Shown here: piece after piece, positions 17,194 through 40,384 of the stretch
Layout of the letters: each line of letters opens with the position of its first letter
How positions within the stretch are numbered: the stretch's first letter is position 1
DNA from: Verrucomicrobiota bacterium
Lineage (GTDB): Bacteria > Verrucomicrobiota > Verrucomicrobiia > Opitutales > Opitutaceae
Length of the DNA stretch: 40,387 nucleotides
Direction of reading: 5' to 3'
Assembly: GCA_030605125.1 (NCBI GenBank)
Contig: JAUWBD010000021.1
Span: 1-40,387 of the forward strand
Notes under the pieces: model-generated
Told to the model about the DNA's origin: nothing
Seen by the model: the letters and a program-made list of their open reading frames with translations, nothing else
The model's database searches: none
Made by a program: the position numbers and the translations under genes

Positions 17194-19890
17194 ATGAAGC
17201 TGCCCCGCACCCCCGTCCTCCTCTCTGTGGCCTCGCTCGCGGCGCTCTTCGGTGCGGCTTGCGGCACGGCTCCTTCCACCGCGCCCGGGTCGGTCTCGAC
17301 CCGCGCGGAGCGCGCCGCCGCCCCGGCGGGGCCCGTGGTCCATGACCGCGGCGAAGTGAGCGTCGTGGCGAGAAGCGCCGACGGGCGGATCTGGGGCGTC
17401 GGCCCGCGCGACGGCGAGGCGCTCCTGCGTTGGGAAGACGAGGGCTGGAAAAAGGTGGAGTCCTTGGCCGAGCTGCCGGGGACTGTGATCGCCCTTGCGC
17501 CCGATCCCGCGCGCCCGGGCTTCGTGGTGTCGCTCAAGAGCAGCCGGCTCGAGGGTGGCGAGCAGTCGGTGTTGCACCTTCATCGTCATGGGGAGGGGAG
17601 CGAGCGAGTGGCCTTGGCGAGCTTTGCCAACACGATCCTTGTGGAGGGGCAGCGCCGGAGCCAGACCCCGTCGCTCGTGGTGGACGCGGCCGGCGATTAC
17701 TGGCTGAGCTTTCGCGCGCCGCTGCTCCTGCGGGTGCCGGCGCAGGGCGGCGAGCCTGAGCGCATCGAGGTGCCGCAGGCCTGGTTCAAGCCGATGCGGG
17801 GCACGGGAGTGACGCGCCATTTCGCGCTTCGCTTCACACCCGAGCCGGAGGGGCGCGGCGAAGGGTGGCTGTGGAGCGTGATCGGGGAGGCCATGCCCGT
17901 GGGCTTCGGTGCGCTGCCGCGGCCGGTGCGGCTGCGCGAGGGGCGGGTGGAGCCTTGTCCGCCGCTCGCGGGTTTGCCCGCCGAGGTGCCGTGGGTGAGC
18001 TGCGTGGTGGTGATCGGTCGCGGCCGCGCCATCTGGGCGCTGGAAGACGCCGGCCTGTGGGAGATCGATCTCGCGAGCGGTAAAGCCTTGCCGCTGCCTT
18101 CGCCGCCTGGGGCTTGGCGCATTCTTGATTACGCGCGTCCGGCAGAGGGCGTGGAGGTGGCGCTGGTGGTGTCGCCGCGGCGCTCTCCGGACCGTTTGTC
18201 GGGCGATGTGTGGGTGCGCCTCGCCGGCGGCGAGTGGCGCCTGGCGGGGCCCTCGGGGGATGTGCGCAGCAGCACCTCCGCGGTGGATGGCTGGCATATA
18301 CGTCCGCGGTCGTGGGCTGTGGTCGATGGCTTGTTGTTGGGCGCGCCTTTTACCTCGGGTCTGGCCGCGGTCGATCTGCGGGCGGAGCTTCCCGTGGCGC
18401 TGAGTCTTGATTGGCGCGCGGGGCTGCGGCTCGGCGGTCCGCGCGATCTCTTCGCGCTGCCGGATGGGCGGTTGCTGGTGCAGGGCTCCATCGCCACGGC
18501 CGCGCCCGCGGCGGAGTGGCGCAGGCTTTGGGCAAACGCGCTCGCGCTCGGCGAGGGCGAGCCAGGTGGCGGGGTGGCGCGCTTTACGGGGTCGGTGATA
18601 CGCGCGACCGACGGTCGGCTGTGGGCCCTGCAGGCCAGCGGACGGGGTGCGCCCTGCGTGCGACACTGGGATGGGGAGCGCTGGGTGCGCTGGGCGCTGC
18701 CTCCCGAGCGGGAGTGGTGGCCTGACGAAGGATTTTTTGTGGAGGCCGGGAGCGGACGCGTGGTGGTGACGGGCGAGGGTCCCAACACGCCCGCCTGGGT
18801 GCGTGACGAGGGAGCCGAAGGCGGCTGGCGTTCGCTCGGGACCGTGCGTGAGTGGCTCGCGGCCCGGGCGGACGCTGGCGAGGATGCGGAGGTGTTGCCG
18901 CGGTCGCGCGAAGGGTATTTGCGCCGGCCGATCTTCGGGCCGCAGGGGCGGGTGTTGATCGGGTATAGCGGCGGGCTTTGGCTGCGGCGCAAGGGGGAGT
19001 GGCTCTTCTTCTCCACGCGCGAACTGGGCGCGGCTGCCTGGCGTTACGGATTTGATGAGGACGGCGAGCCCTGGGTCGCCACGCAGCGCGAGCGGCGCCG
19101 CCTGTTGGCCGGGGGTGGAGTGGGCGCGCCCGAAGCATGGCGGGATCCGGAGGCGCGCGGCACTTCTTCGCACGCCACGCGGCAGCCGGATTGGCTGCGA
19201 GCCTGGCTGCGCGAGCGCACGGCGGAGGCGGTGCAGGTGGATGCGAGCGGCGTGTGGTGGATCTTGCGCGAGGGCGAACTGTGGGCGGCGCGGGAGGGCG
19301 AGTTTGTCCGCGTGTTTGAGGACGAGGAGCCCTCGCCCTTCCGCATCGCCCGGAGCGGGGGCTTTTGGTCGGTCGAGGTGGACGCGCGCGGGCATCGTTT
19401 TTTCGCGGCGACGTCGCCGGTTTTCCTGCCGGCGCTTCCGGCGCGCGCGCTGGAACTCCGATGGGAGGGGGGCGAGGACGAGGCGGATCGGGTGGGCGAG
19501 ATCATGGGCGGCGGCCGCGTCGAGTGGCGTCTGGGGGAGGAGCGCTGGCGGCCGGCGTCGGGCGGGCGGATCGAGTTGATCGAGCTGCCGGCCGGGGTGC
19601 ATCGGCTCGAGTTGCGCGGCGAGGATCGGCGGCTCAACCCGCAGCCCGCGCAGGTGCATACGCTGCGCGTGGACTACGACGAGGCGGCGCGGGTGGAGCG
19701 TTTGCTCGCGTGGCTGGGAGAGGCCTCGCGCCGCAACGAGGCGGTGCGCCGGCTGGCTCTGCGTGGTGCGCAAAGCGAGGCGCGCCTGCGGGCGGAGCTG
19801 GGCGCCGAGCAGGACGAGGCGCGGCGTTGGTGGCTGCGCGCGGCCTTGCAGGCGGTGGAGGACCGGCGTGGGCTCGGGGACGCGCCATGA
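17194..19890 (+). CDS. Propeller-repeat (two-component-regulator-propeller-like) exported lipoprotein
   Basis: 898 aa. An N-terminal hydrophobic stretch ends GAAC (Cys23), a slightly atypical lipobox; a secreted form is possible. The body repeats blade-like motifs such as DGRIWGVGPRDGEALLRWEDEGW (from residue 63), DGRLWALQ...HWDGERWVRW, and ASGVWWILREGELWAAREG. These resemble the Reg_prop repeats of sensor propellers. Near 775-815, VEWRLGEERWRP...AGVHRLELRGEDRRLNP is like the Y_Y_Y domain that follows such propellers. No kinase domain is attached. Its stop codon overlaps the histidine kinase start by 4 nt (ATGA), so the two are translationally coupled. I infer a periplasmic sensor partner of that kinase. 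Confidence 0.75.
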   Translation: MKLPRTPVLLSVASLAALFGAACGTAPSTAPGSVSTRAERAAAPAGPVVHDRGEVSVVARSADGRIWGVGPRDGEALLRWEDEGWKKVESLAELPGTVIALAPDPARPGFVVSLKSSRLEGGEQSVLHLHRHGEGSERVALASFANTILVEGQRRSQTPSLVVDAAGDYWLSFRAPLLLRVPAQGGEPERIEVPQAWFKPMRGTGVTRHFALRFTPEPEGRGEGWLWSVIGEAMPVGFGALPRPVRLREGRVEPCPPLAGLPAEVPWVSCVVVIGRGRAIWALEDAGLWEIDLASGKALPLPSPPGAWRILDYARPAEGVEVALVVSPRRSPDRLSGDVWVRLAGGEWRLAGPSGDVRSSTSAVDGWHIRPRSWAVVDGLLLGAPFTSGLAAVDLRAELPVALSLDWRAGLRLGGPRDLFALPDGRLLVQGSIATAAPAAEWRRLWANALALGEGEPGGGVARFTGSVIRATDGRLWALQASGRGAPCVRHWDGERWVRWALPPEREWWPDEGFFVEAGSGRVVVTGEGPNTPAWVRDEGAEGGWRSLGTVREWLAARADAGEDAEVLPRSREGYLRRPIFGPQGRVLIGYSGGLWLRRKGEWLFFSTRELGAAAWRYGFDEDGEPWVATQRERRRLLAGGGVGAPEAWRDPEARGTSSHATRQPDWLRAWLRERTAEAVQVDASGVWWILREGELWAAREGEFVRVFEDEEPSPFRIARSGGFWSVEVDARGHRFFAATSPVFLPALPARALELRWEGGEDEADRVGEIMGGGRVEWRLGEERWRPASGGRIELIELPAGVHRLELRGEDRRLNPQPAQVHTLRVDYDEAARVERLLAWLGEASRRNEAVRRLALRGAQSEARLRAELGAEQDEARRWWLRAALQAVEDRRGLGDAP

Positions 19891-21788
19891 AGACCGCCAC
19901 CCGTCGCCTCTGGCTCTACGGCCTGTTGTTGCTCCTGCCCGCGCTGGCGGTGGGCGGGCTCGCGCTGGGCCTGCTCGCGCGCGAGGAGGGCCGCCTGGCC
20001 GAGCGGGAGGAGGCGGCGGTCGAGGCGCGGCGCGCGGCGGTCGAGGCCCGGGCGCGGCTGATCGTGGAGAACATCGAGCTGATGCTGGGCGACGTGCAGG
20101 CCACGCTGTTGCAGACCCTCGCCGAGGCGCCGGCGGAGGAGCCGCGGCCCTTCCTCGAACGCTGGCGGGCCAACAACCCGCTGGTCGGCGACGTGTTTCG
20201 CGCCAGCTCCGAGGGCCGCGTGGTGTGGGGCGCGGAGGATGCGGACGTGCGGGCCTGGATGGCGGCGGCTCCGCCCTGGCGCGTCCCGGCGCCTTTGCCC
20301 GAAGGGTTCGCCGAGGGGATGTCGGCCTTCGGGGGCTTCGCGGACAGCCAGGCGGTCGAGGCGCCGCGCCGGGGCGTGGGCGAGAACGTGCTTCAATACC
20401 AACGCGCCCGCCAGGAGGTGCAGGAGCTGGCGCGGGTGGGCGCGGAGCCGGCCGACGCGACGCGGAAGGTTTCGCTGCAGGCGGCGGAGCCGTCCGCGCG
20501 GCCCTCCGCGGCTCCGGCCACCGCTCCGGCTCCCGCCGCCGCGCCGGCCTATCCGGCGCCGCAGGCGAGGGAGGCGCCGGCGCGAGACTTCGCGGACGCG
20601 GCCACGTCCGAGCTTTCACGGCAGCGTCGCTCGCAAGTGGCGCTGGTCGCCACGCCCTCGCCGGTGCCGGTGGTGCGCGCGGGCTGGAGCCCGTGGCGCG
20701 ACGCGGAGGGGCGGGCGCATTTGCTGGCCTGGCGCGAGCTGCCGGATGGCTCCTTCATCGGCTTCAAGCTGGCGCTTGAGGCGATAAAGCCCCGGCTCGG
20801 GGAGGTTTTTCCCGCGGCGGTCTCGGCCGGCGAAGCCTACGTGCTGCGCGACGCCGCGGGCGCGGTGTGGCACGCGGCGGGAGAGGCGGGGGCGCCGCTC
20901 CTGCTGGCCCTGGACCTGGCGGAGACTTTGCTGCCCGGGTGGAGCGTGGAGGCGCGGGATCGCGGCGCGCTCGCCCTCTATTCATCGGGCGGAGTTTTTG
21001 CCCCCGGCGCGGCGATCGTGGCGCTGCTCGTGCTCGCGATCCTTGCCGCCGGCACGCTGCTGCTGCGGCAGGCACGGCGCAGCGAGGAGGAGGCGGCGCT
21101 CAAGACCTCTTTTGTGGCCAACGTCTCGCACGAGCTGAAGACGCCGCTCACCACCATCCGCCTCTACGCCGAGCTGCTCGCGCAGGGCCGCGTGCGCGAG
21201 GAGGCGAAGCGGGCGGACTATCTTGCGACGATCGGACAGGAGACGGAGCGCCTCGCGCGCCTGGTGGGCAATGTGCTCGACTTCAGCCGCCTCGAGCAGG
21301 GGAAAAAGAAGTTCGCGCTCGCGCCCGTCGATCTCGCCGTGGAATTGCGTCGGCTGGCGGAGACGCATGCGCCGCGGCTTGCCGAGTGCGGGCTTGCGCT
21401 GCGCGTGGAGGCTCCGGCGACTTTCGCGCTCGAGACCGATCGCGACGCGGTGGAGCAGATCGTGCTCAACCTGCTCGACAACGCTTGCAAATACGCGGCC
21501 GCGGGCGGCGAGGTTTTGCTCAGCCTCGCAAGCGATCCCGCGAGCGGCGCGGCGCGCGTGAGCGTGGCCGACCGTGGCCCGGGCGTCTCGGCGGCGGACT
21601 GCGAGCGCATATTCGAAAAGTTTCATCGCGTCGACGAGCGCCTCACCGCGGAGAAGGGCGGGGCGGGCCTGGGCCTGAGCATCGCGCGCCAGCTCGCCCG
21701 CGGCCTCGGCGGCGAGCTGAGCTGCGCCCCGCGCGAAGGCGGCGGCGCGGTCTTCACCCTTACGCTGCCGCAGCGCCGAGATTTTTGA
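19887..21788 (+). CDS. Membrane sensor histidine kinase
   Basis: 633 aa from the ATG at 19887, which overlaps the previous stop; the frame is open further upstream but the coupled start fits the N-terminal membrane helix (LYGLLLLLPALAVGGLALGLLA, about 9-30). A long periplasmic part (about 31-370) contains an Ala/Pro-rich low-complexity linker near 200-245. A second helix lies at about 372-393. The cytoplasmic half has the H-box FVANVSHELKTPLTT (H415), the N-box NLLDNACKYAA, and G-boxes VADRGPGVS and GGAGLGLSIARQL, with an F-box-like IFEKFHR between them. All catalytic motifs are intact. It should phosphorylate the response regulator encoded 99 nt downstream. A composite inverted repeat lies between them. 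Confidence 0.9.
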   Translation: MKTATRRLWLYGLLLLLPALAVGGLALGLLAREEGRLAEREEAAVEARRAAVEARARLIVENIELMLGDVQATLLQTLAEAPAEEPRPFLERWRANNPLVGDVFRASSEGRVVWGAEDADVRAWMAAAPPWRVPAPLPEGFAEGMSAFGGFADSQAVEAPRRGVGENVLQYQRARQEVQELARVGAEPADATRKVSLQAAEPSARPSAAPATAPAPAAAPAYPAPQAREAPARDFADAATSELSRQRRSQVALVATPSPVPVVRAGWSPWRDAEGRAHLLAWRELPDGSFIGFKLALEAIKPRLGEVFPAAVSAGEAYVLRDAAGAVWHAAGEAGAPLLLALDLAETLLPGWSVEARDRGALALYSSGGVFAPGAAIVALLVLAILAAGTLLLRQARRSEEEAALKTSFVANVSHELKTPLTTIRLYAELLAQGRVREEAKRADYLATIGQETERLARLVGNVLDFSRLEQGKKKFALAPVDLAVELRRLAETHAPRLAECGLALRVEAPATFALETDRDAVEQIVLNLLDNACKYAAAGGEVLLSLASDPASGAARVSVADRGPGVSAADCERIFEKFHRVDERLTAEKGGAGLGLSIARQLARGLGGELSCAPREGGGAVFTLTLPQRRDF

Positions 21789-21867
21789 CCGCTAATATGC
21801 GCTAAAGGACGCTAAAGGAAATCCAAGGTAGGTTTGATTTAGCGGCCTTTAGCGAACTTTAGCGGTT
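21787..21867. repeat. Composite inverted repeat element B (unit CGCTAAAGGA)
   Basis: After a GACC cap, three 10-bp units (21790-21819) read CGCTAATATG, CGCTAAAGGA, CGCTAAAGGA. After an 18-nt spacer, three inverted 10-bp units (21838-21867) follow, TTTAGCG plus GCC, AAC and GTT. The arms can pair to a hairpin of about 30 bp with few mismatches. The cap overlaps the last two bases of the kinase TGA stop. The element fills most of the kinase-regulator gap. Confidence 0.85.
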
Positions 21868-21887
21868 CTCCTCTTCCCGTCATTACC

Positions 21888-22643
21888 ATGAAAGCCCGCA
21901 TTCTCATCGCCGAGGACGACGCCAACATCCGCCTCGGGCTCATCGCCACTTTGGAGAGCGAGGGCTACGAGGTCACGGCCGCCTCCGACGGCGCGCAGGC
22001 GCTCAAACTGTATCCGCAAGGGAGATACGAACTCGTGGTCCTCGACGTGATGATGCCCAAGGCCAGCGGCTACGACGTGTGCCGCGAGCTGCGCGCGGGC
22101 GGCTCGATCACGCCGGTGCTCTTTCTCACCGCCAAGGGCGAGGAGGTGGACAAGGTGGTTGGTCTCAAACTCGGCGCCGACGACTACGTCGTAAAGCCCT
22201 TCGGCGTGCGCGAGCTGCTGGCGCGCGTGGAGGCCCTGCTGCGGCGTGGCCGGGCGAGCGCGGCGGCGGCCGCCGCGCTCGGCGGAAACGGAGCCGGCGC
22301 GGCGCTTCCGCCGGTGTTTCGCCTCGGCGAGGCGGAGATCGACCGTCGCGCCTTTTCGGTGCGGCTGCCGGGGCGCGAGGCGGAGTCGCTCACGGCGCGC
22401 GAGCTGAAGCTCGCGGAGGTGTTTGCGGCGCATGCGGGCGAGACGCTCACCCGCGACCAGTTGCTCAACGCAGTCTGGGGGCTCGGCTACACCGGCACCA
22501 CGCGCACGCTCGACCAGCATGTGGCGCAGCTGCGCAAGAAGGTGGAGCCCGACCCGGAGTCGCCGCGCGCGATCCTCACCGTGCACGGGGTGGGCTACCG
22601 TTGCGCGGGGCCGTCGTCGGCGAACCCGGAGAAAATCCCGTAA
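21888..22643 (+). CDS. OmpR/PhoB-type response regulator
   Basis: 251 aa. Receiver domain: the acidic pair E9-D10-D11, phospho-acceptor D53 in [15 protein letters not shown]81 in FLTAKG, and K103 in YVVKPFGV. A 25-residue Ala/Gly linker follows, then a winged-helix domain (about 145-245) with [31 protein letters not shown] and [16 protein letters not shown]. PhoB/OmpR regulators bind tandem direct repeats of 10-11 bp. The four 11-bp-spaced boxes at 14115-14152 are a candidate target. Its cognate kinase is encoded just upstream. Confidence 0.92.
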
Positions 22644-33652: not shown

Positions 33653-36523
33653 ATGAAACTACCCCCGCTGCCCTCCTTCGCGACGATCGCGCTTGGCGTC
33701 TCCGCCACTTTTGTCGCCGGCCATACGGCCCTCGCCCAGTCCACCGGTTTTAATCAGACCGGCGCCGGTCCCTTCGACTACAACACCGCCTCCAACTGGA
33801 TCGGCGGAGCGATCAACGGCGTATGGGGCCCCGACCTCACGCTGGCGGAGAACCAAGCTGTGACGTTCTCGACGAGCCAAACTTTGGCTGCGACCAACGG
33901 CATCGCGCTCAACTTTAGCCACGCGGGCGCCTTTAGCACGACCCTTCGCTCCGATGGCAACGGCGCCCAGACGATCACTTTGGGCGGCGATGTTCTGGTC
34001 AATACCGCCAGCACCAGCCCTAGCCCGATCGTTTTCCTCGGGTCCTTCACGGCGAACCAGAATCTCTCGATCAATCTCGGCGGCGCCTCGCGCACCTTCA
34101 ACGTCACCTCCAGCGGCGCGCGCAACATCTCCGTGCGTGGCAACTTGGTTGGCACGCACGCGTCTGACGGCGTCGTGAAGATCGGTGCCGGCACGCTCAC
34201 CTACGAGGCCATCATGGGCTACACCGGCGAGACCAAGGTCAACGGCGGCACGCTCGCCCTCGCCGGCTCCGGCGCGGTCCCGTCCTCCGCGGTTTCCGTG
34301 GCCAACGGCGCCACGCTCAACATCAACAACTCCGGCAACGGCAACACCACCCGTGTCCGCGCCCAAAGCGTCGCGATCAACTCCGGCACCCTGAGCATCG
34401 GCAGCCACACCGGCAGCCTCGCCGCCTACGACGACCAGATCTCGGGTGCGATCTCGGTCGCGGGTGGAGGCACGATCACGATCAACACGCCTTCGAATAA
34501 GCACAACCAGCTCACGGCCGGTTCCTTTGTCCAGGCTCCCGGCGGCGCCACGCTCTTCCGCGGGCTGAATCTTGGCGTCAACACGGCCGCGTCGAAGACC
34601 GCGAACAGCTCGAACATCGTCTTCACCTCCGCCCCGGCTCTCTTTGGCAACGGCGCCGCCGGCACCTCCTCCGTCGGCATCATCGCCGGCGCCTACGGCG
34701 ACACGATCGCGGGCGGCAGCGGCACCGGCTTGGTGACCTACGACGCCACCCGCGGCGTGCGGCTTCTCGCCGGGTCCGAATACTCCACCACGCTCGCGCA
34801 CAACGAAGGCAACGTGAGCCTCGTCGGCGTCGCCGGTGGCGTTTCCGGCGCACCCCGCGCCGTCACCCTCGACGGCGCCGCCACCATCCAGTCGCTCTCG
34901 CTCAACACCAGCGGCGCCGCCGGCAACTCCGGCCTCGTCGTCTCGGGGACCGATGCCCTCACGATCAGCAGCGGCACGATTTTTGCCAACCAAGCCGTCA
35001 CCGGCACCGTGACCGCGAGCGACGCGATCGTCGTCTCCAAGAATATCCACTTTGGCGGAGTCGAAGGAAAGGTTCTCGTCGGCAACACCACCGGCGTCTC
35101 CAACAACATCACCGCCGCGCCCCTCAACCTCTCCGGCGTGATCTCCGGCTCGGCCGGTCTCACCAAGGCAGGCGGCGGCAACCTCCACCTCACCGGCACC
35201 GCCTCCAACACCTACACCGGCATCACCACGTTCAACGCCGGCAACGTCCTTCTCGCGAAGACCGGCGGCGCGCAGGCGATCACCGGCGATCTGGTCCTCA
35301 ACGGCGGCACCCTCGTGCAGAACGCCAACCAAATCGCCGACGGCGCGAACGTCACGGTCAACGGCGCCACCTGGCGCCTCGCACCCTCCGGCAGCGGCGG
35401 CACCGCCTCCAGCGAGACCGTCGCTTCGATCACGATCAACAGCGGCACCGTGCAGCAGTCCTCGAGCTCCGTCACCAGCGGTCAGCTCACTGTCACCCAG
35501 GCCCTCACGCTCAACGGCGGCACCTACTCCCAGGTCGGTGGCTACAAGGCCGCCGTCGGCTCGCTCGCGCTCAACGGCGGCACCAGCACTGTGAGCGCCG
35601 CCAACGGCACGACGACCACCGTGCTCACCGTGAACGGCGACCTCGCGATCACCAACGTCGCCTCGTTGATCGCGCAAAACGGCGCCGGCTACACGCCGAT
35701 CACCCTCAACGCCGGATCGGGCTCCGCCGCGGGCGCGCAGCTCGTGTTGCTCGGCGACCTGTCCTTCGTCGGCAACGCCACCAACGCCCACACCACCACC
35801 ATCGCGACGACGGTGAATGCCAACCTCGGCACCATCCAGCTCGGCGGCGCGCGCGAGTTCGACATCGGCGACGGCGCGGCGGCGAACGACCTCACGATCA
35901 ATGCCGTGCTCGCGGATCGCAGCTTCGGCGCGACCACCGTCGGCGGCCTCTTGAAAACCGGCACGGGCACGCTCGCCCTCGGCGGCGCCAACACCTACAC
36001 CGGCGCCACCACGATCAATGCCGGCACGCTCGCGCTTGTCGGTTCCGGCGCCTCGCTCCACTCGGCCTCCGCGCTCTCCGTCGCGCCCGGCGCTCGCCTC
36101 GACGCCTCCGCGCTCGCCGCCTGGTCGCTCAGCGCCGACTCCGGCACCATGATCGGCGTCGGCGCCTCGGTCGCCGGTCTCGTCAAGGCCGCGAGCCTCA
36201 ACTTCAACGGAGCCTCGCTCACCTTCGACTTCGGCTCCGTGTCCACGCTGGCCGAGAGCTACCAGATCTTCGACTTCGTCGGACTCGCCGGCTCGGGTGT
36301 CGGCGGCGTGGCCGCCACCGGCACGACCTTCTCCGGCACCTTTGCCCACGAGGGCGCCGGCGTGTGGTCGCTGGTCTCGGGGGAATACAGCCTCACCTTC
36401 ACCGAATCCACCGGCTTGCTGACCACGGCCTCGGTGATCCCCGAGCCGTCTGCGGTGGCTTTCCTGGCCGGCCTCGCCGGTCTCGGGCACGTCGTGTTTC
36501 GCCGTCGTCGTCGCGCGTCCTGA
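33653..36523 (+). CDS. PEP-CTERM protein built of autotransporter-associated strand repeats
   Basis: 956 aa from the ATG at 33653 (MKLPPLPSFATIALGVSATF..., a signal peptide ending near ALAQ). The body is Gly/Thr/Asn-rich beta-helix sequence. At least three clear autotransporter-associated strand repeats are seen: GAGTLTYEAIMGYTGETKVNGG (from about 180), GGGNLHLTGTASNTYTGITTF (from about 505) and GTGTLALGGANTYTGATTINAGT (from about 768). The last 29 residues are a PEP-CTERM signal: VIPEPSAVAFLAG, a hydrophobic helix, then RRRRRAS. PEP-CTERM proteins are processed by exosortase and tied to exopolysaccharide or surface display. There is no autotransporter beta-barrel. No exosortase gene lies in the window. 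A dyad box is 60 nt upstream. Confidence 0.9.
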   Translation: MKLPPLPSFATIALGVSATFVAGHTALAQSTGFNQTGAGPFDYNTASNWIGGAINGVWGPDLTLAENQAVTFSTSQTLAATNGIALNFSHAGAFSTTLRSDGNGAQTITLGGDVLVNTASTSPSPIVFLGSFTANQNLSINLGGASRTFNVTSSGARNISVRGNLVGTHASDGVVKIGAGTLTYEAIMGYTGETKVNGGTLALAGSGAVPSSAVSVANGATLNINNSGNGNTTRVRAQSVAINSGTLSIGSHTGSLAAYDDQISGAISVAGGGTITINTPSNKHNQLTAGSFVQAPGGATLFRGLNLGVNTAASKTANSSNIVFTSAPALFGNGAAGTSSVGIIAGAYGDTIAGGSGTGLVTYDATRGVRLLAGSEYSTTLAHNEGNVSLVGVAGGVSGAPRAVTLDGAATIQSLSLNTSGAAGNSGLVVSGTDALTISSGTIFANQAVTGTVTASDAIVVSKNIHFGGVEGKVLVGNTTGVSNNITAAPLNLSGVISGSAGLTKAGGGNLHLTGTASNTYTGITTFNAGNVLLAKTGGAQAITGDLVLNGGTLVQNANQIADGANVTVNGATWRLAPSGSGGTASSETVASITINSGTVQQSSSSVTSGQLTVTQALTLNGGTYSQVGGYKAAVGSLALNGGTSTVSAANGTTTTVLTVNGDLAITNVASLIAQNGAGYTPITLNAGSGSAAGAQLVLLGDLSFVGNATNAHTTTIATTVNANLGTIQLGGAREFDIGDGAAANDLTINAVLADRSFGATTVGGLLKTGTGTLALGGANTYTGATTINAGTLALVGSGASLHSASALSVAPGARLDASALAAWSLSADSGTMIGVGASVAGLVKAASLNFNGASLTFDFGSVSTLAESYQIFDFVGLAGSGVGGVAATGTTFSGTFAHEGAGVWSLVSGEYSLTFTESTGLLTTASVIPEPSAVAFLAGLAGLGHVVFRRRRRAS

Positions 36524-36528
36524 GGTGG

Positions 36529-36549
36529 AGCGCGTTGTCCCAACGCGCT
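36529..36549. repeat. Perfect 9-bp inverted repeat after the PEP-CTERM gene
   Basis: AGCGCGTTG (36529-36537) pairs with CAACGCGCT (36541-36549) across a 3-nt loop, beginning 5 nt after the stop codon. The stem is strong but no T-run follows. It may end or stabilise the PEP-CTERM transcript, or be a dispersed palindrome. Confidence 0.5.
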
Positions 36550-36610
36550 TGCTTTGGCGCGGCCCCGCCCATGTGCCAAAACCCGCGGGTTCCGCTTCCG
36601 CGGGCCTCCT

Positions 36611-36757
36611 TCAAATCGGCAGCAGCCAGCGCAAGACCGGCTCGGCTGCTCCGCCGACGAACAGGCTGATCGGAATGAGCAGGCGGGCGAGCCGCAGCGC
36701 GCGCGTCGGCTCCGGGACCAGCCGCGCGAGAGTGGCGAAGGCGGGATGGGTTTTCAT
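36611..36757 (-). CDS. 48-aa hydrophobic microprotein with a creD-type operator
   Basis: The small ORF reads MKTHPAFATLARLVPEPTRA...LLPI, with a basic N-terminal half and a hydrophobic C-terminal half (LARLLIPISLFVGGAAEPVLRWLLPI, about 23-48) likely to enter the membrane. It would be easily missed by size. Support comes from upstream: four TTCAT/TTCAC boxes at 11-bp spacing (36780-36817) end 22 nt before its ATG, nearly duplicating the block before creD. It lies 139 nt downstream of creD on the same strand but seems to have its own promoter. No family is recognised. Confidence 0.6.
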   Translation of the reverse strand: MKTHPAFATLARLVPEPTRALRLARLLIPISLFVGGAAEPVLRWLLPI

Positions 36758-36779
36758 GGCCGCAGTCTGCCCGCTCCGC

Positions 36780-36817
36780 GTGAAGCCCCGATGAAGCGCG
36801 CATGAACTCCGCATGAA
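36780..36817 (-). promoter_or_regulatory. Cre-tag-like operator upstream of the microprotein ORF
   Basis: Read on the minus strand: TTCAT at 36817-36813, 36806-36802 and 36795-36791, and TTCAC at 36784-36780, each 11 bp apart. It matches the block upstream of creD at 33 of 38 positions, including most spacer bases. The E. coli CreB site is TTCAC-N6-TTCAC with the same period. It is 22 nt from the ATG. Confidence 0.7.
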
Positions 36818-36896
36818 AAACGCGCGCCCCGTCGGTCGGACGAGGCGCGCGGTGCATGGGGGATGCGCGGGGCGGGAACGGGGAGCGGCGGGCGGG

Positions 36897-38246
36897 CTAC
36901 TCGCGCTCGTCGGTAGGCGGCACGGTGTTTTCGCGCGCCTCGCCGGCGGCCGCGGCCCAGTCGATGTTGCGCGTGGCATACATCACCAGGGCGAGCAGGG
37001 CGAAGAGCGCCACGGTGCCGGCGATCAGCGAGTAGTCCTGCATCCGCAGCACGAAGAAGAGAAAGGCATACACGCCCGAGAGCGCCGCGCCGATCGCGAG
37101 CGAGCGCCGGCCGCTGCGCAGGATGCTCACGCAGTAGAGCGTGACCAGCACGGTGGAGGCGGCCGCGGCCACGAGATAAGCCGCGCCGAAGGCGACGAAC
37201 TCGGAGAAGGCGAGCAGCGCGAGGTAGAAGAGCACGAGCGCCGCGCCGACCAGCGCGTAGTGGAGCACGTGCATCCGCAGCGCGGCCAGCACCTCGAAGA
37301 GAAAAAACGCCGTGAAGGTCAGCGCGATGAAGAGCAGCGCGTATTTCGAGGCGCGCTCCACCACGCGGTAGGCGTCCACCACCTCCACCAGCTCCACGCC
37401 GAAGGCCGAGGCGGCGAGCTGCTCGCGCGACGGCGCGCCCCGCTGGTCGGTCCACTGTTGCGCGTAGTCGCGGGAAAAATACGAGGCGTGCCAGAGCGCC
37501 GCGAAGCCCTCCGGGCCGATCTCGCGCCGGGTGGGCAGCAGCGCGCCGCTGAAGCTCGGATCGGCCCAGGAGGAGCGCAGCGCGACCTCCGTCTCCCGCG
37601 CCGTCGGGGAAAAGGCCAGGCGTCCGCTGCCGTTGAGCTGGAGCGTGAGCGCGAATTCGCCCGCGCCCTGCGCCGACTCCTGGCCGGGCAGCGCGGCGTG
37701 GAGCCCCGCTCCGAGCAGGGGCAGACGGGTGCCGGGCTCGCAGGGGAGGTCGTGCCCGCCCCAGCGCAGGGAGATCGCCTCGCGCGCGCCGCGGAGGTCG
37801 TCCACCCCGAGCGCGAGGTAGGCGCGGTCCCACGCGAGTTGATCCGCGCGGAGGCCGAGCGCGGCGGGATCGGGCGGGGCGAAGCGGCCCTTGATCTCGA
37901 GCCGGGCGGAATAGACCACGGTCTCGTAGATGCCCCGGTGGCGGCGCACGGGCTCCAGTTCGCCGCCGATCGACAGCCGTTCCGGGAGGATGACGGCGAG
38001 CCGGTCGGGCTCGTGCGCCGGGTGCGCCGCGACGCGGTAGGGCACGACGAGGAAGGGGCCGACCAAGCGCTGGGCGCGGCCCCAGGAGTCGGTGATTTCG
38101 GAGAGGGCGGCGTCGCGCCGGGTGGCGCGTTCGGTGAGGAGGCCGCCGATGAGCCAGAGCGGGATCTGGAGGATCGCGACGAGGATCAGGATGCCCAGCA
38201 AGCGGAGGGTGAGACGACCGTGGCGGAGAAGTGAAGGAAGGTTCAT
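36897..38246 (-). CDS. creD: CreD family inner membrane protein
   Basis: 449 aa from the ATG at 38244-38246 (MNLPSLLRHGRLTLRLLGILIL); an ATG at 38258 would add MLAP. CreD organisation is clear. An N-terminal membrane helix is followed by RRDAALSEITDSWGRAQRLVGPFLVVPY, a periplasmic beta domain (about 60-300) with YETVVYSARLEIKGRF and FGVELVEVVDAYRVVERASKYALLFIALTF, and then five or six C-terminal helices (about 290-430) with VLHYALVGAALVLFYLALLAFSE. In enterobacteria and Pseudomonas, creD belongs to the CreBC regulon and affects envelope integrity and beta-lactam responses; its biochemical role is not settled. A four-box operator lies 23 nt upstream. No creBC homologues are adjacent. Confidence 0.9.
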   Translation of the reverse strand: MNLPSLLRHGRLTLRLLGILILVAILQIPLWLIGGLLTERATRRDAALSEITDSWGRAQRLVGPFLVVPYRVAAHPAHEPDRLAVILPERLSIGGELEPVRRHRGIYETVVYSARLEIKGRFAPPDPAALGLRADQLAWDRAYLALGVDDLRGAREAISLRWGGHDLPCEPGTRLPLLGAGLHAALPGQESAQGAGEFALTLQLNGSGRLAFSPTARETEVALRSSWADPSFSGALLPTRREIGPEGFAALWHASYFSRDYAQQWTDQRGAPSREQLAASAFGVELVEVVDAYRVVERASKYALLFIALTFTAFFLFEVLAALRMHVLHYALVGAALVLFYLALLAFSEFVAFGAAYLVAAAASTVLVTLYCVSILRSGRRSLAIGAALSGVYAFLFFVLRMQDYSLIAGTVALFALLALVMYATRNIDWAAAAGEARENTVPPTDERE

Positions 38247-38269
38247 GGGCGCGAGCATGGCGGAGCCGG

Positions 38270-38307
38270 ATGAAGCCCGGATGAAGCGGGCATGAACTCT
38301 GGATGAA
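38270..38307 (-). promoter_or_regulatory. Cre-tag-like operator upstream of creD
   Basis: On the minus strand TTCAT occurs four times, at 38307-38303, 38296-38292, 38285-38281 and 38274-38270, exactly 11 bp apart. The E. coli cre tag that drives creD is TTCAC-N6-TTCAC, so the core and period are shared and the copy number is doubled. It ends 23 nt before the chosen creD ATG, leaving little room for a leader. A leaderless or very short 5' UTR is implied if a -10 lies in that gap. Confidence 0.75.
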
Positions 38308-38415
38308 ATCGGTGACGACGCGGGGGGGGCGGGGGAGGCGGCGGGGGCCCCGCTCGGGCGCCGCGGGAGGCGGAGCTTGTCGTGGCGCGGCGGGTCGGCT
38401 AGCAGCTGTCAACAT

Positions 38416-39372
38416 ATGCGAATCCGGCTCGCTTGGGTTTGGTTGGTGTGCGGCCTGGTGTCCGCCGCCCGGCTCGGGGCGGGCGATGCCGCGCCCTTGC
38501 GCCTGGTCGTCAACCCCTGGCCGGCCTCGGCGCTCAACGTGGAGGTCGCTCGTCAGCTCCTGGAGCGCGAGCTCGGGCGTAAGACGTCGGTCGTCGAGGC
38601 GGACGAGCAGGCGCAGTGGGAGTTGTTGGCCAAGGGCGAGGCGGAGGCGGTGCTGGAGCTCTGGCCCTCGGGGCACCGGGCCCACTGGCAGCGCTTCGTG
38701 GTGGAGCGGCGCGCGGTGGTGCCGGGCGGGCCCTTGGGCGTGCGCGGCCAAATCGGCTGGTTCACCACGCGCGCCACGCTGGAGCGGCACCCGGCGGCGG
38801 CGTCCTGGCGCGGCCTCGGCGCGGGCGGAGGCGCGGAGGTTTTCGCGAAGCGTCGCGGCGAGCGCGGACGCCTGCTGACCGGCGACCCGTCGTGGACCCA
38901 GTTTGACGCGGAGATCATCGCCAACCTCGGCCTTCATCTGGAGGTCGTGCCGCTCGGTTCGGAGGCGGCCTTGGTGGCGGAGGTGCGGCGGGCGGCGAAG
39001 GCGGGCGAGCCGGTGCTTTTCTATTTCTACACGCCGCACGCGCTCTTTGGTGAGCTGGATCTCGTGATGGTGGAGCTGCCGCGGCACGATCCCGACCTGT
39101 GGACAAAGGCGGGGCGCGGCGGGGCGGCCTGCGCCTATCCGGCGGAGCCCCTGACGAAGCTCTTTTCGGCGGGGCTGGTGGAGGCCGATCCGGTGGCGAC
39201 GGCCTTTCTCCGCGCGATGCGTTACGAGGCCTCCGCGCAACTGGAGATGTTGATGGCGCTGGAAAAAGGCTCAAAGCCCGCCGAGGCCGCAGCGACCTGG
39301 ATCGCGAACAACGAGGCGGTCTGGCGCCCGTGGGTGGGGGCGGCGCGGGTGGTCGCCGAGGCCGCGCGCTGA
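38416..39372 (+). CDS. OpuAC-type (glycine betaine/choline) periplasmic substrate-binding protein, orphan
   Basis: 318 aa from the ATG at 38416 (MRIRLAWVWLVCGLVSAARLGAG, a signal peptide). The fold signature of OpuAC/ProX binding proteins is visible: LRLVVNPWPASALNVEVARQLLERELG, EAVLELWPSGHRAHWQRFV, GQIGWFTTRATLERHP, LTGDPSWTQFDAEIIANLGL, and EPVLFYFYTPHALFGELDLVMVELP. The Trp and Tyr residues fit an aromatic cage for quaternary amines. No permease or ATPase gene is nearby in the window, so it either works with a distant ABC transporter or is a sensor. It is divergent from creD. Confidence 0.8.
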   Translation: MRIRLAWVWLVCGLVSAARLGAGDAAPLRLVVNPWPASALNVEVARQLLERELGRKTSVVEADEQAQWELLAKGEAEAVLELWPSGHRAHWQRFVVERRAVVPGGPLGVRGQIGWFTTRATLERHPAAASWRGLGAGGGAEVFAKRRGERGRLLTGDPSWTQFDAEIIANLGLHLEVVPLGSEAALVAEVRRAAKAGEPVLFYFYTPHALFGELDLVMVELPRHDPDLWTKAGRGGAACAYPAEPLTKLFSAGLVEADPVATAFLRAMRYEASAQLEMLMALEKGSKPAEAAATWIANNEAVWRPWVGAARVVAEAAR

Positions 39373-39385
39373 GCCGCGGGTGCTA

Positions 39386-40384
39386 GAGCATTTCAAATAA
39401 AACTGTAGCTATTTCTCGGGGGCCAGCTAAGGTGAGGAGATGAAGACGACATCACTCGACCTGAGGCAGCGGATTGTAGAGACCTACGACGAGGGGAAGT
39501 GGACCCAGGAAGAGGTGGCGAAGCGGTTTCGGGTGTCAGTCGGGCTGGTCAAGAAGCTGCTCTCCCAGAGAAAGCGGACCGGTCGGATCGAGGCGAGGCA
39601 CCGCTTTTCTGGAAGAAAGGCGCGGTTGTTGCCCGAGCGGGGCGCGCAGTTGAAGAACTTGGTGGCAACGGAGCCGGATCTGACTTTGGCGGAGATCAAG
39701 GAGCGCCTGAAGCTGGAGTGCTCGATCGGGGCGATCCACTGGGTCTTGGGCCGGCTGGGGCTGACATATAAAAAAAGACGCTCCATGCGGCAGAGCAAAA
39801 CCGTGCCGATGTCGCCCAAGCCCGTCGGCGGTGGAAGCGGGGACAAAGTGGCCTCGACCCGGCGCGCCTGGTCTTCATCGACGAGTCGGCGGCCAAGACG
39901 AACCTGACGCGTCTGCGCGGTCGCTCGCCGAAGGGAGAACGGCTGGTCTGTCATGCGCCCCACGGGCATTGGCGCACCACCACGATGATCTCCTCAGTGC
40001 GGCTCAACGGCGAGACCGCCTGCATGACCATCGAGGGCGCCACCAACACCGAAGTCTTCCACGCCTATGTCCGCGAGATCCTCGTTCCCACGCTCAAGCC
40101 GGGGGATATCGTCGTGCTGGACAACCTCGGGGCCCACAAAAACGCCCGCACCCTCGCTTTGATCGAAAAAGCCGGTGCCGAGGTCCGCTTCCTGCCCGCC
40201 TACTCCCCGGACCTAAACCCCATCGAGCTGATGTGGAGCAAAGTGAAGGCGCTCCTTCGCAAGGCGCAGGCACGCAACCACCCGGACCTCCTCGCGGCGA
40301 TCGCCTCCGCCTTGGCCGCCGTCACCCCGGAAGATGCTCTCGGCTGGTTTGCCTGCTGCGGCTATAGTTTTATTTGAAATGCTC
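39386..40384 (+). mobile_element. Complete IS630-family insertion sequence (999 bp)
   Basis: Terminal inverted repeats of 24 bp (39386-39409 and 40361-40384) match at 23 of 24 positions. A TA dinucleotide flanks each end (39384-39385, 40385-40386), the target duplication of IS630/Tc1-type elements. Inside is one transposase reading region in two overlapping frames. It inserted 13 nt after the OpuAC stop codon and breaks no visible gene. The window stops 3 bp after the element. Confidence 0.92.
39440..40377 (+). CDS. IS630-family DDE transposase, two frames joined by a -1 shift
   Basis: Frame 1 starts at the ATG at 39440, with a good AAGGTGAGGAG ribosome site just before it, and gives the helix-turn-helix part (MKTTSLDLRQRIVETYDEGKWTQEEVAKRF...). 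It would end at 39907. At seven A residues (39770-39776) a shift of -1 enters a frame reading KKTLHAAEQNRADVAQ, then LVFIDESAAKTNLTRL, which is standard IS630 sequence. The catalytic triad is intact: Asp codon at 39880 (FIDES), Asp at 40120 (VVLDNLGAH), Glu at 40225 (NPIELMW), with 34 residues between the last two, the D34E spacing. The stop lies in the right inverted repeat. The A-run suggests programmed frameshifting or transcript slippage rather than decay. Confidence 0.9.

Follow-up and report, generated by a model that had tools for sequence, protein, structure and literature searches.

A probable CreB-controlled and probably leaderless microgene downstream of creD in a member of the Opitutaceae

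Downstream of creD in the 40,387-nt stretch of DNA analysed here (the window), a minus-strand open reading frame (ORF) is probably a microgene controlled by CreB, transcribed separately from creD and probably leaderless. The ORF occupies positions 36611–36757 (stop codon included), running from an ATG at 36757 to a TGA stop at 36613–36611, and encodes 48 aa, the size given in the preliminary description of this DNA. It is preceded on the same strand by a CreB-type operator at 36817–36780, an array of four TTCAY direct repeats with an 11-bp period that reads TTCATGCGGAG TTCATGCGCGC TTCATCGGGGC TTCAC, and by a −10 element, CAGACT (36769–36764), which lies 10 bp past the last TTCAY and 6 bp 5′ of the ATG. 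The gap between the array and creD (cell envelope integrity protein CreD; 36897–38246, minus strand; PF06123, 468.1 bits; NF008712, 469.6 bits, cut-off 275) holds an intrinsic terminator (36851–36821, minus strand) with a 13-pair GC-rich stem, the longest in the terminator scan, and a T5 tail that overlaps into the first repeat of the array; the corresponding 44-nt stretch has a folding energy of −27.7 kcal/mol (z −4.3). Past the ORF stop, a weak terminator-like hairpin (36608–36578, minus strand) has seven G–C pairs (36604–36582) followed by TTTTGG. A 46-nt stretch at this place folds at −18.4 kcal/mol (z −2.1), the T run is itself base-paired in the predicted fold, and the hairpin was not flagged by the terminator scan, which requires five T. 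A convergent plus-strand ORF ends at 36523. With terminator, operator, ORF and hairpin following one another in sequence, the 48-aa ORF thus forms a compact unit of its own. Elsewhere in the window, two plus-strand ORFs in different frames at 39440–40377, matching the IS630 helix-turn-helix transposase family and then DDE_3, look like a two-frame or broken insertion-sequence transposase.

The preliminary description had drawn attention to the resemblance between this array and the operator of creD (38307–38270, minus strand; four TTCAT repeats, 11-bp period), and this holds in full: the two are identical at 33/38 positions, and the distance from array to ATG is 22 nt at the ORF and 23 nt at creD (ATG 38246). 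If up to three mismatches are allowed, a three-repeat pattern matches the window four times, each time within one of the two arrays, where 0.04 matches would be expected. The exact three-repeat pattern yields five matches at three loci in the 4.88-Mb genome (reversed pattern, 0), namely creD, the 48-aa ORF and one radical-SAM gene, and exactly three places in the genome match a pattern of two repeats with the −10 and the start codon at the right spacing (control, 0). The third promoter (G000:C14:13254-13304; L032) lies 21 nt 5′ of a 468-aa gene on contig C14 with radical-SAM and B12-binding domains, and proteins in the blastp cluster of this gene are promoter targets elsewhere in the family (L065, L191, L192, L196, L075). 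That array and ORF should be neighbours by chance, without any regulatory relation, is therefore extremely improbable: an open 48-codon frame is expected in 68% of random sequences of the local composition, which makes such a pairing easier to obtain and the length of the open frame uninformative, yet the array is unique against zero genome controls and the promoter geometry is exact. The spacers of the two arrays agree at 14 of 18 positions, compared with a mean of 8.1 (sd 2.6) over the 1431 pairs of 54 arrays, 2.1% of which reach at least 14. This hints that the microgene array may be a duplicated creD promoter, although shared genome composition could explain part of the spacer identity and the 22–23 nt past the two arrays are dissimilar.

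The same arrangement recurs throughout the family as a rigid promoter grammar of repeats, 10 bp, an A...T −10 element and an ATG. Three repeats followed by the −10 element and ATG occur at 147 sites in 102 of 252 genomes of the family, presumably the Opitutaceae, and the reversed pattern has no match. A search of 200 family genomes for four repeats alone, whatever followed them, found the pattern in 38 (the reversed control gave two matches, both in one genome); with the creD promoter of the window added and the site at the 48-aa ORF left out, this provides 51 distinct readable sites. The −10 element (A at position 12 and T at position 16 after the last TTCAY) is found at 48 of these 51 sites, with shifted controls giving 0–5; an ATG stands at offset 20–26 in 44 of them, with one to six at seven other offsets; and both are in place at 43. 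In a slightly different set of 51 sites, the corresponding counts were 47 and 43. The ATG follows the −10 by 5–10 nt at 44 sites, most often by 6 or 7 (28/44), so the ATG of the 48-aa ORF sits at the commonest position among the family promoters. When a position-weight model was trained on 50 sites, with the ORF and creD promoters left out, the ORF promoter scored 59.9 and that of creD 62.0 against a training mean of 59.7; the best site elsewhere in the window, overlapping neither array, scored −11.6. For the spacer and −10 part alone, the ORF reaches 12.7 (training mean 7.8; random mean −9.1, sd 4.9).

For creD itself, the promoter geometry places a −10 element, CATGCT, at 38259–38254. The gene has a second in-frame ATG at 38246 and another 12 nt upstream (38258–38256) that overlaps the predicted −10, and the geometry favours 38246 over 38258 as its start. 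Among 60 creD loci from named genomes of many phyla (DNA up to 2 kb on each side), the three-repeat array is present in 11, all labelled Opitutia, Opitutae, Opitutales, Opitutaceae, Opitutus, Lacunisphaera or Verrucomicrobia; ten of these have the −10 and nine have it together with an ATG at offset 22–25, though the 11 are not independent of the 252-genome set, since several already belong to it. Within these bounds, the grammar appears to have been elaborated in this lineage. A correctly placed ATG is no proof of a gene: 29 of 133 distinct promoter–ATG units in the DNA examined open ORFs of at most 97 aa, and the nine of those that have at most 40 aa are likely wrong or broken frames.

The presumed controller is encoded elsewhere in the genome, on contig C70, by a CreB equivalog (NF008296, 312.8 bits; cut-off 273) and an adjoining CreC equivalog (NF008312, 555 bits; cut-off 356). 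The published cre/blr tag is TTCAC-N6-TTCAC (PMC4689548), and binding of CreB to the cre tag in vitro has been reported (PMC3962086). TTCAC-like tandem repeats with 6-nt spacers stand 5′ of the 48-aa ORF, and on this resemblance the arrays are CreB-type operators, with binding and control by CreB being putative. Scored as present at E ≤ 1e-75, CreB occurs together with the promoter in 81 of the 252 family genomes; 20 have CreB only, 21 the promoter only and 130 neither (Fisher 5e-27, uncorrected for relatedness and genome completeness). Of the 102 genomes with the promoter, the 21 that lack CreB at this threshold comprise eight with a creD match and 13 with neither. In genomes without such a CreB match, the same repeat grammar is seen 5′ of genes for ~190-aa proteins (L176 in G009, L177 in G002, L121 in G034 and others), of which the L176 protein is YceI-like by Pfam and shares its cluster with 15 further proteins; such genomes may have a second regulator that recognises a near-identical operator. 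The window contains a two-component pair of its own at 19890–22643, a histidine kinase and an OmpR-type response regulator with VWA and DUF4139 proteins encoded upstream. This pair was rejected as CreBC because the regulator (175 bits) and the kinase (136 bits) stay below the CreB and CreC cut-offs of 273 and 356, respectively, whereas contig C70 has both equivalogs.

The usual distance between a −10 element and the transcription start puts the start at or beside the ATG here. Given this spacing, a leaderless mRNA is predicted for the 48-aa ORF, with the −10 at 36769–36764 placing the start on the A of the ATG at 36757 or immediately adjacent to it. No AGGA, GGAG or GAGG is present 16 to 4 nt before this ATG. 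Such a Shine–Dalgarno motif occurs at five of 44 array sites, and at 0 of 20 other window genes, whose starts were chosen by the analyst; its absence at the ORF was therefore dropped as support for leaderlessness, leaving the position of the −10 element to carry the prediction. Some Verrucomicrobia are scarce in Shine–Dalgarno sequences, according to one report (PMC10783764). No standard sigma-70 promoter was found, as expected if CreB replaces the −35 box, but this is not proof of such a replacement.

The codon usage of the ORF is coding-like, on evidence that is good but not overwhelming. GC contents at the three codon positions are 0.73/0.52/0.85, close to the means of 21 window genes picked by the analyst from the ORF list (0.70/0.50/0.89). 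The codon score of the ORF is 0.076 per codon. Among random open frames with the local composition (mean −0.37, sd 0.14), 0.02% score as high, as do 2.9% of 960 wrong-frame gene windows. Some 6.8% of 192 true gene windows score at or below it, which places the ORF within the codon usage of its genome, at the low end of the range of real genes.

Relatives of the ORF were not found. In 252 family genomes, a search at E ≤ 0.05 returned the ORF itself and three weak matches (E 0.016–0.049) that are no more than chance would give. Scattered weak matches, many of them inside long frames, were all that 95 genomes (its own included) yielded at E ≤ 1; a pattern scan of the genome_contigs collection gave no homologue, and no Pfam family scored over its cut-off. 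The genus is represented by 14 other genomes, not all of them complete, in which neither creD nor CreB (E ≤ 1e-75) was found, and since no close relative examined keeps the locus, the missing homologues constitute weak evidence against a gene. The preliminary description had presented the ORF as a real small protein co-induced with creD. The shared operator, the terminator-separated unit and the coding-like codons bear this out in part and make co-induction with creD likely, while the lack of a homologue in 252 genomes tells, if weakly, against the protein being real.

This lack also lends some weight to the idea that the promoter was orphaned when a target on the creD side, for example a VIT-domain gene, was lost, leaving behind a decayed or random ORF. 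The VIT/VWA protein of L077 (PF08487, 120.9 bits) belongs to a 12-member cluster of proteins under CreB promoters, a VIT gene (124.7 bits) starts 27 nt past creD in G049, the closest creD relative, and the genome of the window has no VIT match at E ≤ 0.01. Moreover, some ORFs at other arrays look broken. Yet the codons of the 48-aa ORF are coding-like, its −10 and ATG are exactly placed, and it shows no convincing likeness to other promoter targets (best phmmer E 0.21); the sequence read from G049, moreover, shows no separate array for the VIT gene. We rejected the notion that the ORF is itself a VIT-gene remnant, given the missing VIT match in the genome and the lack of convincing similarity to promoter targets. 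An orphaned promoter as such we consider, on balance, rather unlikely. A tentative idea, less likely than not, concerns how a microgene of this kind could arise: any open frame behind the leaderless CreB module of the family might be usable, and a copy of the creD promoter behind the creD terminator might have given birth to a new, species-specific, stress-induced microprotein gene.

A short transcription unit without sequence relatives could also specify a CreB-induced regulatory RNA of ~180 nt in which the ORF is incidental. However, the predicted transcript begins at the ATG of a coding-like frame, as it does at protein-coding CreB targets, and Rfam has no match up to E 1 in 36400–38500; we regard such an RNA as very unlikely.

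Precedent for a small protein at this place comes by analogy from other short ORFs that recur under CreB promoters. A seven-member cluster of 40–85 aa is encoded near creD or creB. Its full-length members have 79–85 aa (L113, L148, L209, L105, L151), and two are shorter or cut (L153, L163); L113, L105, L209, L148 and the short L163 have a same-strand creD match downstream, L151 has a creB match, and L153 is cut by the contig end. The L113 protein has no Pfam match. The 79–85-aa proteins share small size and promoter type with the 48-aa ORF, but they are encoded upstream of creD or creB, whereas the ORF lies downstream of creD behind a terminator; moreover, none of them is among the phmmer matches listed for the ORF up to E 10, and the ORF falls into a separate blastp cluster. 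A further three-member cluster of 60–70 aa (L060, L061, L181; no Pfam match for L060) likewise shares promoter and small size with the ORF and is not among its phmmer matches.

Other frames behind these arrays differ in kind. Behind the CreB-type arrays of L038, L039, L040, L068 and L069 there is a short frame carrying the motif PRLxCALxGLLP; this frame also lies just past creD in L091 and L095, where it runs into an apparent prmA. It may encode a leader peptide or else the beginning of an extended protein; Rfam identified no RNA in L069 and L091, or in any of the four loci searched at gathering scores. Many family genomes also encode a short CreD-like protein (~223–252 aa) under a CreB-type promoter (L053, L070, L124, L134, L145, L202, L203 and others), and these genomes match only the C-terminal part of CreD.

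The membrane character assigned to the 48-aa product in the preliminary description is borderline. Its 19-residue Kyte–Doolittle maximum of 1.58 is equalled by 41% of residue shuffles. A single-sequence AlphaFold model contains helices at residues 5–13 and 17–45 (best of five models: mean pLDDT 79.7, pTM 0.41; the other four: pLDDT 64.9 to 74.7), and the longer helix fits a membrane-associated one without showing it. The further proposal that the product acts as a partner or subunit of CreD fared less well. Operator and spacing are shared, the ORF adjoins creD and is helical and moderately hydrophobic, and in several relatives an unrelated small ORF lies between a CreB promoter and creD. Against this, among 29 relatives with creD, not one shows even a two-repeat array on that strand within the 1.4–1.5 kb examined downstream of creD; nor is the ORF present at the other creD loci examined or, as a homologue, in the 252 genomes, so that co-conservation with creD was not observed. 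The borderline hydrophobicity and the terminator between creD and ORF point the same way, and co-regulation does not imply binding. None of the findings speaks for physical contact, and a partnership with CreD is improbable.

For the CreB-controlled microgene, the following course of events is likely. Phosphorylated CreB, encoded with CreC on the other contig, would bind the four 11-bp repeats as at creD and bring in RNA polymerase, thereby substituting for a −35 box. With the CAGACT element 10 bp downstream of the repeats as its −10, the polymerase would begin transcription on the A of the ATG or right beside it. Ribosomes would read the leaderless mRNA from its 5′ end and make a peptide of 48 residues that is mostly helical and moderately hydrophobic. 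The upstream terminator would keep the unit independent of creD, and the weak terminator-like hairpin lies past the stop. The peptide itself may be a species-restricted accessory product of an envelope-stress regulon, perhaps located at the inner membrane.

The family-wide promoter, which drives other small proteins as well, is of more interest than the 48-aa ORF itself. Its rigid grammar, with zero reversed-control matches, makes the CreB regulon of the family readable from genomes, suggests corrected start sites such as that of creD and draws attention to small genes that could be lost in annotation. Should leaderless starts be confirmed, the distance from operator to ATG would mark a coding gene, which would be useful for finding microproteins. 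Little has been published on CreD (PMC4689548), whose function is largely open, and searches of open-licence papers yielded no description of a CreB regulon or of leaderless CreB promoters in this phylum.

Compared with the CreBC regulon of E. coli, Aeromonas and Pseudomonas, repeat sequence and 11-bp period are alike, and creD, the hallmark target there, is present here together with CreB and CreC equivalogs. The version in this family differs in having three to five repeats and TTCAT as well as TTCAC (three of the four repeats in the microgene array are TTCAT, unlike the published tag), a fixed −10 and ATG spacing that implies leaderless mRNAs, and targets that include small orphan or lineage-restricted proteins. 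In its layout, the promoter also recalls the pho-box promoters of PhoB, where an OmpR-family regulator binds direct repeats that substitute for the −35 box, with ~10 bp between their end and the −10. The pho-box repeats differ in sequence from the TTCAY repeats seen here, and pho-box promoters are, to our knowledge, not generally leaderless.
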